DNA of 42,313 bases from an uncultured Clostridia bacterium. GTDB taxonomy: Bacteria > Bacillota > Clostridia > TANB77 > CAG-508. Made by a program: the position numbers and the translations under genes. The stretch spans positions 1 through 42,313 of the forward strand of contig CANRKF010000008.1 in NCBI GenBank assembly GCA_947631145.1, given 5' to 3'. The notes under the pieces were generated by a model that had not been told where the DNA came from, did not search any database, and saw only the letters and a program-made list of their open reading frames with translations. Below, in pieces: positions 6,894-41,699 of the stretch (positions within the stretch are counted from its first letter, which is position 1; every line of letters begins with the position of its first letter).

Positions 6894-7067
6894 ATGCAAA
6901 ACAACAAGGTGCATGCCAGAACGAACAACAACAGCAGGGAGAAGAAAACCAAAAAGGAAAACCAGTGCATCCACCGGGAAGACTGCGTTCTGCCTGAGTG
7001 CGGAACGGCTAGGTGTGGCTCCGCTAAGCGGTGCCGTTCCTTCAAGTCGCCGGTAAAAAATAAATAA
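6894..7067 (+). CDS. GC-rich, Cys-rich mini-protein, 57 aa (MQNNKVHARTNNNSREKKTKKENQCIHREDCVLPECGTARCGSAKRCRSFKSPVKNK)
   Basis: SD aaggag upstream of ATG at 6894; codon usage very different from neighbours; not in ORF track because it is under 60 aa. Confidence 0.45.
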   Translation: MQNNKVHARTNNNSREKKTKKENQCIHREDCVLPECGTARCGSAKRCRSFKSPVKNK

Positions 7068-10345: not shown

Positions 10346-10446
10346 TAGTTATTTGGTAGGCGTGGCTTTCTCCTACATCTCTCGGGTTTCCCCTGTCGAT
10401 ACCATCAGCGTGTGGTTGCCACGAAATTTACCACCTCAAATAACTA
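10346..10446 (-). ncRNA. truncated 5S-rRNA-like structured RNA
   Basis: Minus strand has CGCTGATGGTATCGACAGGGGAAACCCGAGAGATGTAGGAGAAAGCCACGCC, like the 3' half of bacterial 5S (CGCCGAUGGUA...GAGAGUAGG). Ends pair as TAGTTATTTG/CAAATAACTA, inner CGTGGC/GCCACG, terminator follows on the same strand. Confidence 0.42.
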
Positions 10447-10788: not shown

Positions 10789-12261
10789 TTGAGCACTGCA
10801 AGTGGAGCTAAGGGTATAACTTTAATAGCCTTAGTAGTTACTATCGTAGTGCTTTTAATATTGGCAGGAATAACCATAACAATGGTATTAGGAGAAGATG
10901 GAATAATAGCACAGGCAAAATTAGCAGCAGAAAAGACAAAAGAAGCAGAAGAACAGCAAGAAAAAGATTTACAAGATTTAGTAGGAATGATAAATGAGGC
11001 AGTGAATGGAAAGGATCCAGAAAACTTACAAGACGCAGTAAGTAGTAAAAAAGTATTTTCAAACACAACGAAATTTGATGCCGAAGGAAATAAAATAGAC
11101 GAAAGTAATGAAGAAAAAAAGACAACTGCAATAACCATACCAGCAGGCTTCAAAATAATAGAAGGAGATCCAAGTAAAATAAATGAGGGAGTAGTAATAT
11201 CAGACGAAGCAGGAAATGAATTCGTATGGGTGCCATGTACGGCAGAACAATATAAATCACATACTTATACTGGAGATCATTCAAGTGATAATGGAACAAA
11301 TATTATTAAAGATACAGAAGGAGGTTGGAATACATGGGGTTATGGGGCATATAATGATTGGACAGACGAAGGAACAAATGAAGACAGCGTAGCAAAATAT
11401 GGAGGCTTTTATATAGCAAGATACGAAGCAGGAATACCAAGTAGCATGACCGGAATTTATGTAGATTCAAAATCAGCCAATAGACCTTATGTAGTAGACG
11501 GAAGAGATACATCAAATTATGCTCCAGTAAGTAAAAAAGGAGCACAAGCATGGAATTATATAAGTCAAACAAATGCAAAAGAAGCAGCAAGAAAAATGTA
11601 TAGCGGAAGTGGGGCAGTAACAAGTCAATTGATAGATGGAACAGCATGGGATAGAACAGTACAATGGATAGTAGAAAATAGTGGAGTTACAGATATAGAA
11701 AAAGATAGTACAAATTATGGAAACTATGCAAATACTTCGGAGAGATTTGGAGAAAAATATAAAAAATTAAGTATAAATTCTCCTATACTATTTGCAGAAC
11801 ACTTATTTGAGTACAACACCGATGAAACAACTGGTGCTTGGAAACAAAGTGTTGGCTGGAGAGAGGGAAAAAACTATCAATATGGAAGCATAGATACTGG
11901 TTACGAAGATCCATATAATTCATTAACTGATGCAGCAGAAAAATACAATAATTTCGGTGGTACAGAAAATAAAAAGTATAGACATTTTATAGAATTATCT
12001 ACTGGAGCAAGTGAAGATACAAAATTAAATAATATATATGATTTAGCAGGAAACATGTACGAATGGACAACAGAAACAGGTCACCATAAAACAGACACAA
12101 ACACAGAAGCCGGCAGTACGAAGTTCGCTGTCGTTCGTGGTGGCAGCTTAATCGACGTCGGTGAAAGCTATCCCGTTTCTATTCGCTATGGAAACCCTAT
12201 TATAGACACGACTCGTTTTTCAATGGGCTTTCGTGTTGTACTTTATGTAAAGCAATACTAA
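10789..12261 (+). CDS. prepilin-like N-terminus + FGE/C-type-lectin-fold protein, candidate DGR target copy 1; likely phase-variable and out of frame with its ATG
   Basis: GAKGITLIALVVTIVVLLILAGITITMVLGEDGI; NEFVWVPC; GGFYIARYEAGIPSSM; LNNIYDLAGNMYEWTTETG; ...GFRVVLYVKQY. Listed start is a TTG with a weak upstream SD. Confidence 0.8.
   Translation: MSTASGAKGITLIALVVTIVVLLILAGITITMVLGEDGIIAQAKLAAEKTKEAEEQQEKDLQDLVGMINEAVNGKDPENLQDAVSSKKVFSNTTKFDAEGNKIDESNEEKKTTAITIPAGFKIIEGDPSKINEGVVISDEAGNEFVWVPCTAEQYKSHTYTGDHSSDNGTNIIKDTEGGWNTWGYGAYNDWTDEGTNEDSVAKYGGFYIARYEAGIPSSMTGIYVDSKSANRPYVVDGRDTSNYAPVSKKGAQAWNYISQTNAKEAARKMYSGSGAVTSQLIDGTAWDRTVQWIVENSGVTDIEKDSTNYGNYANTSERFGEKYKKLSINSPILFAEHLFEYNTDETTGAWKQSVGWREGKNYQYGSIDTGYEDPYNSLTDAAEKYNNFGGTENKKYRHFIELSTGASEDTKLNNIYDLAGNMYEWTTETGHHKTDTNTEAGSTKFAVVRGGSLIDVGESYPVSIRYGNPIIDTTRFSMGFRVVLYVKQY
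12118..12252 (+). other. candidate DGR variable region, copy 1
   Basis: 135 bp, GC-rich with CGT/CGC Arg codons in a gene otherwise using AGA; aligns without gaps to 33846-33980. Confidence 0.6.
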
Positions 12262-32424: not shown

Positions 32425-32486
32425 AGTATTAATTCATATAATGAAAGGTTTATTTGAATAAAATTACAAAAGAAAGGGAGAAAATT

Positions 32487-33983
32487 ATGATAGGAAAATT
32501 GCAAATGAGTAATGAAAACAAAAAAATGCAATTAAAAGCAAATAAGAAACAAAATGGAGGAATAACGTTAATAGCCTTAGTCGTTACCATTGTAGTCTTG
32601 CTAATACTTGCTGGAATAACTATAACAATGGTACTAGGAGAAGATGGAATATTATCACAAGCAAAACAAGCAGCAGAAAAAACAAAAGAAGCAGAAGAAC
32701 AACAAGAAAAAGATTTACAAGATTTAGTAGGAATGATAAATGATGCAGTAAATGGAAAAGATCCAGAAAACTTACAAGATGCAGTAAGTAGTGGAAAAGT
32801 ATTTTCAAATACAACAGGATATGACTCAGCAGGAAAGAAAATAGACGAAAATAGTGAAGAAAAGGCGGTACCAGTAATAACAATACCAGCAGGTTTCAAA
32901 ATAATAGAAGGAGATTTAAATAGCATAGACAACGGAGTAGTAATATCAGACGAAGCCGGAAATGAATTTGTTTGGGTGCCATGTACTGCAGAACAATATA
33001 AAAAGCATACTTATGCAGAATTAAAATCTGAAGAAACAGATGAAGGAAAAAATTTAGAAGATGGAAATAATCACGATGAAGGTTGGAATACATATACATA
33101 TAGAAAGTACAACGATTGGGTAGAAGAAAATGAAACAGCCAATAAAGCAAGTATAGGAAAATATGGAGGATTTTATATAGCAAGATACGAAGCAGGAATA
33201 CCAAGTAACATGACAGATGTTTACTTAACCTCACAAACAGGAGATTATACTTATGAAGAAAAAAAGAATACATCAAATTATGTGCCAGTAAGTAAAAAAG
33301 GAGTACAAGCATGGAATTATATAAATCAAACACATGCCAAAGGCGCAGCAGAAAAAATGTATAGCGGAAATAGATATGTAATAAGCCAATTAATAGATGG
33401 AACAGCATGGGATAGAACAGTAGAATGGATAGTAGCTAGTAAAAAATATGCAGACATAGAAAAAGACAGTACAGAACATGGAAACTATGCAAATACTTCA
33501 AAATTAGATATAACAGAAAATATTTTATATGCATTGCACTTGGAAAAGCACGATAACAATCACACAGCAAAAGGTTGGTTCTCAGCAAAGAATTATAGCT
33601 ATGGAAAGCCAGAAAAAATAGGAACAACAGATCCTTATACCGGAGAAGATTTTGGCAATTATAATAATGCAGTTAAAGTAGATGGCAGTGAGCGTCATTA
33701 TAGACAATTATTAGAATTATCAACAGGGGCAAGTGAAGATACAAAACTAAATAATATCTATGATTTAGCAGGAAACATGTATGAGTGGACTACAGAAACT
33801 GGTTATCATAATGTATCAGTTCCAGCAGAAAGAGAGGACACGAGTACACAGTACGCTGTCCTTCGTGGTGGCGCCTTCCTCGGCACTGGGTATGTAGATC
33901 CTGTTTCTATTCGCGCTGGACATAATACTGTAAGCAAAAATGATGTTCACTATGGCTTTCGCGTCGTACTTTATGTAAAATAG
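32487..33983 (+). CDS. prepilin-like N-terminus + FGE/C-type-lectin-fold protein, candidate DGR target copy 2
   Basis: SD aaagggaga before ATG 32487; NGGITLIALVVTIVVLLILAGITITMVLGEDGI; strong similarity to copy 1 throughout; ...GFRVVLYVK. Confidence 0.85.
   Translation: MIGKLQMSNENKKMQLKANKKQNGGITLIALVVTIVVLLILAGITITMVLGEDGILSQAKQAAEKTKEAEEQQEKDLQDLVGMINDAVNGKDPENLQDAVSSGKVFSNTTGYDSAGKKIDENSEEKAVPVITIPAGFKIIEGDLNSIDNGVVISDEAGNEFVWVPCTAEQYKKHTYAELKSEETDEGKNLEDGNNHDEGWNTYTYRKYNDWVEENETANKASIGKYGGFYIARYEAGIPSNMTDVYLTSQTGDYTYEEKKNTSNYVPVSKKGVQAWNYINQTHAKGAAEKMYSGNRYVISQLIDGTAWDRTVEWIVASKKYADIEKDSTEHGNYANTSKLDITENILYALHLEKHDNNHTAKGWFSAKNYSYGKPEKIGTTDPYTGEDFGNYNNAVKVDGSERHYRQLLELSTGASEDTKLNNIYDLAGNMYEWTTETGYHNVSVPAEREDTSTQYAVLRGGAFLGTGYVDPVSIRAGHNTVSKNDVHYGFRVVLYVK
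33846..33980 (+). other. candidate DGR variable region, copy 2
   Basis: 135 bp, same length and register as 12118-12252; shared cttcgtggtggc, gtttctattcgc, ggctttcg, gtactttatgtaaa-type blocks. Confidence 0.6.
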
Positions 33984-36766: not shown

Positions 36767-38821
<2,055 letters not shown>

Positions 38822-38961: not shown

Positions 38962-39246
38962 ATGGTAAGTGCAAATTGGGGAGGAAAAATGGACGGAAAA
39001 TATAGTTTTAAAAACTTTAATCAAAATTTAGAAGATGGATATCAAATTTATTTTACTTATGTACGAAATAGATATTTGTTATTTAAAACAGCGGATAATT
39101 GCTATACACAAAAATTACTTACAGTTAGTGATAAAAATCCTCAGCCAAGAAATAGTATGATTACGTATAAAAGAGTAAAAGAAATGTTTCCACACATGGA
39201 AAATATAGAATATAAAACAGGAATTTCAGATGCAATAGAAAACTAA
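38962..39246 (+). CDS. hypothetical protein
   Basis: Intact 94-aa ORF, native codon usage. Confidence 0.45.
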   Translation: MVSANWGGKMDGKYSFKNFNQNLEDGYQIYFTYVRNRYLLFKTADNCYTQKLLTVSDKNPQPRNSMITYKRVKEMFPHMENIEYKTGISDAIEN

Positions 39247-39328: not shown

Positions 39329-39357
39329 TTGACACAAAACCTCAAATGTGCTATAAT
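39329..39357 (+). promoter_or_regulatory. consensus sigma-A promoter TTGACA-17-TATAAT
   Basis: ttgaca caaaacctcaaatgtgc tataat upstream of 39394 ORF. Confidence 0.85.
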
Positions 39358-39393
39358 AAAAGTATACCTAAATTTTGAAAGGGGTTAGCAACA

Positions 39394-39654
39394 ATGATTA
39401 TGCCTATCGTCATGAAAGAAGAACTTCGTACCCAGATTGACCATGAGCTGAAAAGCTATGGTCTCAAGATCGCCGGTTCTCAATGGATACCCACCAATTG
39501 CTGGTGGGTATCCATTGAGAACCGGTACGGTTCCTACAACCGGCGCAATGTCGCCGACATGTTGATGTCCATTTTGGACGTCGAAGAGATCGTTCTTGAC
39601 GGAACGATGTTCATCAGGAAGGACATTAAACCCCATCGCCGCATTTTAGCATAA
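39394..39654 (+). CDS. GC-rich 86-aa hypothetical protein with internal perfect inverted repeat
   Basis: SD gaaagggg; C/G-ending codons throughout, unlike flanks. Confidence 0.6.
   Translation: MIMPIVMKEELRTQIDHELKSYGLKIAGSQWIPTNCWWVSIENRYGSYNRRNVADMLMSILDVEEIVLDGTMFIRKDIKPHRRILA
39473..39525. repeat. 24-bp perfect inverted repeat, 5-nt loop
   Basis: CCGGTTCTCAATGGATACCCACCA-attgc-TGGTGGGTATCCATTGAGAACCGG. Confidence 0.98.
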
Positions 39655-39670
39655 ATGCGGTGAAACCAAA

Positions 39671-39701
39671 AGAGGCTATTACTTTCCTAAGTATAGCCTC
39701 C
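39671..39701 (+). terminator. hairpin downstream of GC-rich ORF
   Basis: GAGGCTAT-t-ACTT-tcct-AAGT-ATAGCCTC; weak T tract. Confidence 0.55.
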
Positions 39702-39779
39702 TTATTATGAAATTAAAAAGTTATTGGGTACCTATTCAAAACCTTTTATATAAAGTAATGAGCAAGGTCTTATTTTAGC

Positions 39780-41468
39780 CTAAAAATCCTTATTAGGTTT
39801 TACAATAACAGTTTTTTGATTAGTATAAATAACCATGCCATGCTTTGCAGACTTTGGCTTTTTTACATATTTTACTAAAGTATAATCAACTTGTGCATTA
39901 GAAGATTGAATAGCTTTACTATGATATGCAGCAATAGAAGCACATTTATTAATAGTTTCTTGAGAAGGAACTAAATTGTTTGTAACTAATATAACATGGC
40001 TTCCATGAATATCTTTAACGTGAAACCAGATATCATCTTTATTAGCAATTTTGAAAGTAAGCTCATCATTTTGCTTATTATTTTTCCCAACTAATACCTT
40101 AAAACCATCAATTTCATACACAATAGGTTCTACTAAAGTTCCTTTTTTACTTTTCTTTTTAACTTGCTTTTTACTATTTTGTTTTTGCTTAGAAGAAAAA
40201 GAATCTTGAATCTCATCATATATTTCATCTAAATCATTTATATTTTTACTAGCCTGAATTTCATAAACAATACTTTCTAAATAATCAATTTCCTTTTCAA
40301 GTTCTATTTTTTGTTCTCCAACAATGGAAAAAGTATTTTTTAGCTTATGATATTTCTTAAAATATTTTTTAGCATTATCAGCAGGTAAAATAGAAATATC
40401 TAAAGGAATATCAATTAATTCATTGTTATTATAATAATTTGTAAGTTCAATATGAGATAAATGCTCCTTAGGTATTTGATATAAAAAATTAGTAATTAAT
40501 TCTCCATATAGTTTATATTTATCTAAGTTTTGACATTCTTTTAATTTTTCATCAATTCCAGAAAGTTTTTTAGAAATTCTTTTTAATTTTGCAGAAATAA
40601 ACTGAAGCAATTGATTTCTATATGATAAAAACTGTTCTTGCCTTTTTTTATTACTATAATAATCATCTAAAAACAAATTAACTTGTAAAGGCTCTTTTGA
40701 ACTTTCACAAATTTGCAAAGTATAGTCATTTTCAAAAGTAATAGCTTCAGTGTTATTTTTTGTAATTTCATTTTGCAATTCTAAAATATATTTAGCAAGA
40801 ACATTATAATTATTTAAATTTAATGCATCATTTATATCAAGAAAATTTATTGCATTTATAACTAAGGTTTTACTAATACCAGTAAAGTTTTCTACAAAAA
40901 AATCACATAAGGAATTGAAGTTACTTAGCTTATTTTCTAAATTTTTATAATCTGAAATATTAACTTTATTAGATGCTGGTAAAATATATTGTACATGCGG
41001 AAAAATATTGCGGTAAGCACCATTTTCTATATAAAAATGTTTTAAAGAATCTATAATAATATTATTCGCATCTAAAAGTAATATATTACTATGTTTTCCC
41101 ATAAGTTCAACAATCAGCTTTTTAGCTTCAGGCTTATATTCATTATCACCATCAGATAAACTTATTACCAAAATTCTTTCATGATTTATTGTGCTAATAC
41201 CTGTAATTTTATAATTCATTAAATGCTTACGTAAAAGCATACAAAAATTAGGAGCAACCAAAGGGTTTTCCTTTTTAGAAGTAGTTAAATAAGCAGAATA
41301 AAAATTAGAAGAAGTATTTAAGCTTAGAGCATAAGTTAAATTATTTGAGTAAATACTTAAAATTACTTCATCTGAATTAGGCTGATAAATTTTTTGAATT
41401 TTTCCACCAATTAAACATGTATTTAATTCTGTTATAACAGCATTTAGTACAAAACCATCAAAAGCCAT
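39780..41468 (-). CDS. rqcH: NFACT/RqcH-family ribosome quality control protein (FbpA-like)
   Basis: MAFDGFVLNAVITELNTCLIGGKIQKIYQPNSDEVILSIY; DDIWFHVKDIHGSHVIL; HSKAIQSSNAQVDYTLVKYVKKPKSAKHGMVIYTNQKTVIVKP. Confidence 0.92.
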   Translation of the reverse strand: MAFDGFVLNAVITELNTCLIGGKIQKIYQPNSDEVILSIYSNNLTYALSLNTSSNFYSAYLTTSKKENPLVAPNFCMLLRKHLMNYKITGISTINHERILVISLSDGDNEYKPEAKKLIVELMGKHSNILLLDANNIIIDSLKHFYIENGAYRNIFPHVQYILPASNKVNISDYKNLENKLSNFNSLCDFFVENFTGISKTLVINAINFLDINDALNLNNYNVLAKYILELQNEITKNNTEAITFENDYTLQICESSKEPLQVNLFLDDYYSNKKRQEQFLSYRNQLLQFISAKLKRISKKLSGIDEKLKECQNLDKYKLYGELITNFLYQIPKEHLSHIELTNYYNNNELIDIPLDISILPADNAKKYFKKYHKLKNTFSIVGEQKIELEKEIDYLESIVYEIQASKNINDLDEIYDEIQDSFSSKQKQNSKKQVKKKSKKGTLVEPIVYEIDGFKVLVGKNNKQNDELTFKIANKDDIWFHVKDIHGSHVILVTNNLVPSQETINKCASIAAYHSKAIQSSNAQVDYTLVKYVKKPKSAKHGMVIYTNQKTVIVKPNKDF

Positions 41469-41699
41469 ATATAAATTAATCCTTGTAATTGTATTTAGGT
41501 TTTTATAAAGGAAATTACCTATAAACCTATAAAAATTAGCTAAAAGCAAGAAGTAATATAATAAATAACAGAAAAATAATAACATATTTCATATAAAATA
41601 TCAACTTTTTCTTTTGTTTCTATTGACAGAAAAATGTAGAGTATATATAATAAAAACAGTGCTTAAATAAATTATAAAAATATTAAATATTTAAAAAAT

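Follow-up and report, generated by a model that had tools for sequence, protein, structure and literature searches.

A GC-rich mini-gene between p94 and rqcH

The window, i.e. the whole stretch of 42,313 nt analysed here, contains a small ORF located downstream of ligA and p94 and upstream of a convergent rqcH gene. Sequence searches, RNA folding, and visual inspection of the sequence define the following features at this locus.

36776–38821, plus strand: ligA, NAD-dependent DNA ligase (Pfam matches)
38962–39246, plus strand: p94, a conserved 94-aa gene (73–90% identity in most of the genus, 62–63% in its most distant members)
39329–39357, plus strand: σ70-type promoter, TTGACA-17-TATAAT, with an extended −10 TG (12/12 consensus match)
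39378–39384, plus strand: Shine-Dalgarno sequence AAAGGGG, the ATG following 9 nt further on
39394–39654, plus strand: 86-aa ORF (the mini-gene), member of a fast-evolving small-protein family (homologues, dN/dS, and a confident AlphaFold2 model)
39473–39496, plus strand: 5′ arm of the inverted repeat, codons 27–34, in a variable strand/turn of the protein family
39497–39501, plus strand: 5-nt spacer, coding for a predicted β-turn (N35-C36)
39502–39525, plus strand: 3′ arm, codons 37–44 (WWVSIENR), in the conserved WW strand of the family
~39672–39700, plus strand: hairpin 3′ of the ORF, possibly a weak terminator (RNA fold)
39780–41585, minus strand: rqcH/NFACT-family gene, convergent (PF05833, E 3e-102)

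The original prediction described a GC-rich ORF in an AT-rich region, equipped with a consensus promoter, a good Shine-Dalgarno sequence, and a closing hairpin. The composition (GC 0.47, against ~0.22–0.28 in the flanks), promoter, and Shine-Dalgarno sequence are as described. The hairpin is also present, but its U-tract is weak and it did not pass a terminator scan. A similar TTGACA...TGTGCTATAAT arrangement is found upstream of several homologous genes. Expression of the mini-gene is probably good.

At most of the loci examined in the genus, the gene order is ligA, p94, mini-gene, and convergent rqcH. There are exceptions: one homologue lies in another context (G168), one is near rqcH with ligA absent (G181), two adjoin ligA where p94 was not found (G012 and G027), and two are ~4 kb from p94 on the same contig (G019 and G028). 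The neighbours are better kept than the mini-gene protein, with identities of 78–93% for ligA, 51–82% for rqcH, and 77–89% for the p94 protein at these loci, against 15–40%. Beside ligA in two genomes (G001 and G022), a GC-elevated small ORF (...FRWEDVAILHFL...) is found on the opposite strand (L057 743–1045 and L059 672–1001). Elsewhere in the window, there is a skipping-rope RNA (RF02924, 56.2 bits) at 10348–10444 on the minus strand, and two similar long ORFs (10789–12261 and 32454–33983) with pilin-like N termini (GITLIALVVTIVVLLILAGITITMVLGEDGI...) and a GC content of 0.34–0.35.

A fast-evolving protein family of atypical composition

Using a profile built from relatives, we found homologues of the mini-gene protein in 20 of the 30 genomes in the genus and, beyond it, in a few from two other genera of the same family. 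Among homologues, L19, G23, and G28 are invariant or nearly so, and WW and IVLDG motifs are kept. Between close homologue pairs, dN/dS is ~0.4–0.5 with an excess of third-position changes, which indicates a protein gene under purifying selection. The ORF is thus a genuine small-protein gene. Searches of Pfam, PADLOC, PHROGs, NCBIfam, and PDB sequences with the protein gave no match of weight, and no relatives were found in plasmids, phages, or viral contigs. A candidate homologue in an Oscillospiraceae sequence (L003) was discarded as a spurious 12-residue match within an apparent response-regulator gene.

AlphaFold2 modelling with 18 homologues (pLDDT 85) predicts an α-β-β-α-β-β arrangement, with helices at residues 9–20 and 50–61 and strands at 24–32, 36–43, 65–68, and 71–74. 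In this model, the two arms of the palindrome code for the two strands of the first β-hairpin and the spacer for its turn. The small α-β topology resembles that of the RNA-binding-like folds of NusA KH, RimP, and RbfA. The best PDB match is NusA (2atw), with a Foldseek probability of 0.98, but an E value of 0.015 and a TM-score of only 0.44. There is no sequence similarity to any of these proteins, and such weak scores provide no basis for membership, making an RNA-binding role for the mini-gene protein a lead only. The viral fold library yielded nothing significant for the predicted structure.

The composition of the mini-gene is at odds with that of its genome. Its GC3 is 0.62, whereas in 177 long ORFs sampled from the same genome the median is 0.137 and the maximum 0.226, and the codons CTC, CCC, GTC, and ATC, which represent 0–2% of their codon families genome-wide, reach 29–53%. 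High expression alone does not explain this, as judged by rpoB, which has a GC3 of 0.14. Thirteen family members have GC3 values of 0.42–0.75 and further ones of 0.31–0.53, with GC enrichment over the surroundings varying in degree. Two genomes with no recognised homologue, G020 and G029, have small GC-rich ORFs downstream of p94 (GC3 0.50 and 0.67, respectively). The family profile does not detect these ORFs (L150 and L148), which encode ~100 aa and may be relatives that have diverged strongly. No small GC-rich ORF was found downstream of p94 in G015, G024, and G005.

Such atypical composition is a hallmark of recent horizontal acquisition, but the patchy, non-syntenic distribution that would be expected with it was not found, considering the presence of homologues in two-thirds of the genomes and the ligA-p94-rqcH setting of most loci examined. 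The proposal that this is a foreign gene therefore agrees with the composition and not with the genus-wide synteny: recent transfer accounts for the former but not for the common locus. The nucleic acid may be under selection, or the locus may have undergone repeated replacement. Our literature search on GC-rich mini-genes in AT-rich bacteria returned nothing on point.

When 812 kb of the genome were scanned, setting aside ORFs that overlap tRNA, six standalone small ORFs with a Shine-Dalgarno sequence and a GC3 of at least 0.40 were identified. Two are in the window (starting at 39394 and 6894), and the others are on C10, C14 (two), and C21. The ORF at 6894–7067 is a 57-aa basic, Cys-rich mini-gene (GC3 0.67) with a Shine-Dalgarno sequence and a GC-rich hairpin after the ORF, and has relatives in four other members of the genus. 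Beyond the two in the window, small ORFs bearing Shine-Dalgarno sequences, with GC3 values of 0.40–0.55, lie at L107 716–928 (G000:C21), L078 12246–12506, L097 19578–19913, and L098 5351–5605, three of which carry promoter-like TTG...TATAAT sites. The C21 protein (L107) has no relative in the 29 other genomes of the genus.

The inverted repeat in the mini-gene and in its homologues

The inverted repeat, spanning 39473–39525, is exactly as originally predicted: two 24-nt arms, 100% complementary, separated by 5 nt. Identical arms (24/24) with a short spacer are what is expected of a product of template switching. In shuffled versions of the ORF, the longest perfect stem averages 6.4 bp and never exceeds 11 bp. 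Within 812 kb of the genome, no other perfect short-spacer inverted repeat is as long, the next-longest ones being 21 bp and AT-rich. No further copies of the arms were found in the window or in the whole 1.55-Mb assembly, allowing up to three mismatches. A downstream segment resembling the 3′ arm (39725–39743, TGGGTACCTATTCAAAACC) was considered as a relic copy. Its p value is 0.004 for the arm chosen post hoc, but 0.24 over the whole ORF, so the resemblance was treated as chance.

Comparison with homologues shows that the stem is not shared. In the 12 homologues compared, perfect arms reach 8 bp at most and there is no comparable stem that would suggest a conserved RNA or attenuator; no Rfam match was found at the palindrome. 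The stem-bearing segment (~−49 kcal/mol) has a z score of −4.75, with none of 300 synonymous shuffles equally stable, whereas the homologous segments have z scores of −2.3 to +1.9. The one partial counterpart, in a distant relative (G003, L004), is a weak inverted repeat at the same place, in which 11 of 14 pairs are Watson-Crick and which is matched in stability by 23 of 300 synonymous shuffles. This relative also has nine bases of the 5′ arm, CTCAATGGA, in another reading frame, and another distant relative (G014, L060) shares CTCAATG. At the protein level, the W-W-V-S-I residues of the 3′ arm agree with the family. The SQWIPTN of the 5′ arm resembles no homologue; at this position the family mostly shows ASK or GGS, with variable residues after it. 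Taken together, these findings, in which the protein is kept and the stem is absent apart from one weak quasi-palindrome, argue against a functional stem, and correspond to the outcome that the original prediction itself had named as speaking against one.

Origin of the palindrome

Several explanations can be weighed against this background. The stem could be a selected, species-specific regulatory RNA, acting through ribosome pausing or as an RNase III target to limit a strongly transcribed gene. The stability of the perfect 24-bp stem and the strong promoter are consistent with this, as is whole-ORF folding relative to synonymous shuffles, which has a z score of −4.6 here and of ~−3.5 in L004 and L060, which allows for some selection on RNA structure. 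However, homologues have no comparable stem at this position, the z scores of the local segment are near 0 in most of them and whole-ORF z scores are positive in five, and we consider such a regulatory RNA unlikely. Still less plausible is an assembly or sequencing artefact. The sequence does rest on one genome of the species, but the reading frame is open across the repeat, both flanks show homology to family members, the 3′ arm codes for conserved residues, and the repeat lies ~2.8 kb inside the contig end. A recombinase site or foreign unit, both also put forward originally, or a transposon end would be in line with the GC contrast to the surroundings. This is largely refuted and, to us, barely credible, considering that the genome holds no other copy of the arms, the ORF matches no such family in Pfam, PHROGs, or NCBIfam, the neighbours are ligA, p94, and rqcH, and homologues in other species share this genus-conserved site without having the repeat.

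A broader explanation, which we view as conceivable but rather doubtful, is that the mini-gene is one of a class of standalone GC-rich mini-genes, in an AT-rich lineage, whose GC is held high by selection on the nucleic acid while the protein diverges rapidly, the palindrome being a by-product. If so, selection would act on mRNA stability/structure or on a special mode of translation, and the palindrome would be an extreme product of structured, strongly transcribed DNA.

Real though it is, the palindrome is most likely incidental, i.e. a lineage-specific mutation in a genuine gene. The protein is kept in related species that lack the palindrome, which is therefore probably a copying accident in one species. 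We think it reasonably probable that a template switch perfected an imperfect repeat in this fast-evolving gene, the stem being no conserved element. In the event that we infer, the polymerase would have switched template inside a short pre-existing imperfect inverted repeat during DNA synthesis, so that one arm became a reverse-complement copy of its partner. The frame would have stayed open, and the change would have been tolerated because the rewritten arm coincides with the strand and turn of the predicted β-hairpin that vary in the family, the conserved WW strand being retained in the 3′ arm. A family-like 3′ arm paired with an aberrant 5′ arm is the pattern expected had one arm been rewritten from the other across a short stretch of ancestral similarity. 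In the mRNA, the hairpin may hinder ribosome progress or undergo cleavage by RNase III. Counting against template switching, L004 is not the closest species as judged by rqcH/ligA, and its quasi-palindrome surpasses synonymous shuffles by no more than a modest margin. The nearest mini-gene homologues share only ~40% protein identity, which places the pre-mutation sequence beyond reconstruction.

The palindrome would thus offer a clear example of a perfect hairpin arising in a bacterial gene and tolerated by its protein, with two DNA arms encoding two strands of a predicted β-hairpin. Of greater interest are the gene family and its composition. That a tiny gene with a rapidly changing protein remains GC-rich in a genus of extreme AT-richness is odder than the palindrome, and its codon usage, opposite to that of the genome, in a protein evolving much faster than those of its neighbours is a separate question.

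Template switching inside genes has been described in yeast and Escherichia coli (PMC8604942, PMC3820800, PMC7202029). It homogenises short inverted repeats and leaves clustered amino-acid changes (PMC8604942, PMC3820800, PMC8794818), and a single event is able to make a perfect hairpin (PMC8794818). The mini-gene palindrome shares with these quasipalindrome mutations a short spacer, identical arms, and clustered in-gene amino-acid changes (PMC7202029, PMC3820800, PMC8604942). It differs in that its stem is 24 bp, against 5–8 bp for the hotspot products in PMC3820800, and in that the event is deduced from distant homologues rather than observed. Template switching has also been proposed for the coding palindromes of Nematomorpha mitochondria (PMC6649704), which are likewise perfect inverted repeats within translated protein-coding sequence. 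In four such genomes there are 110 repeats of 15 bp or more, some of them at positions that the four species have in common and with conserved residues encoded by both arms, whereas here there is one repeat in one species, and only one arm is conserved.
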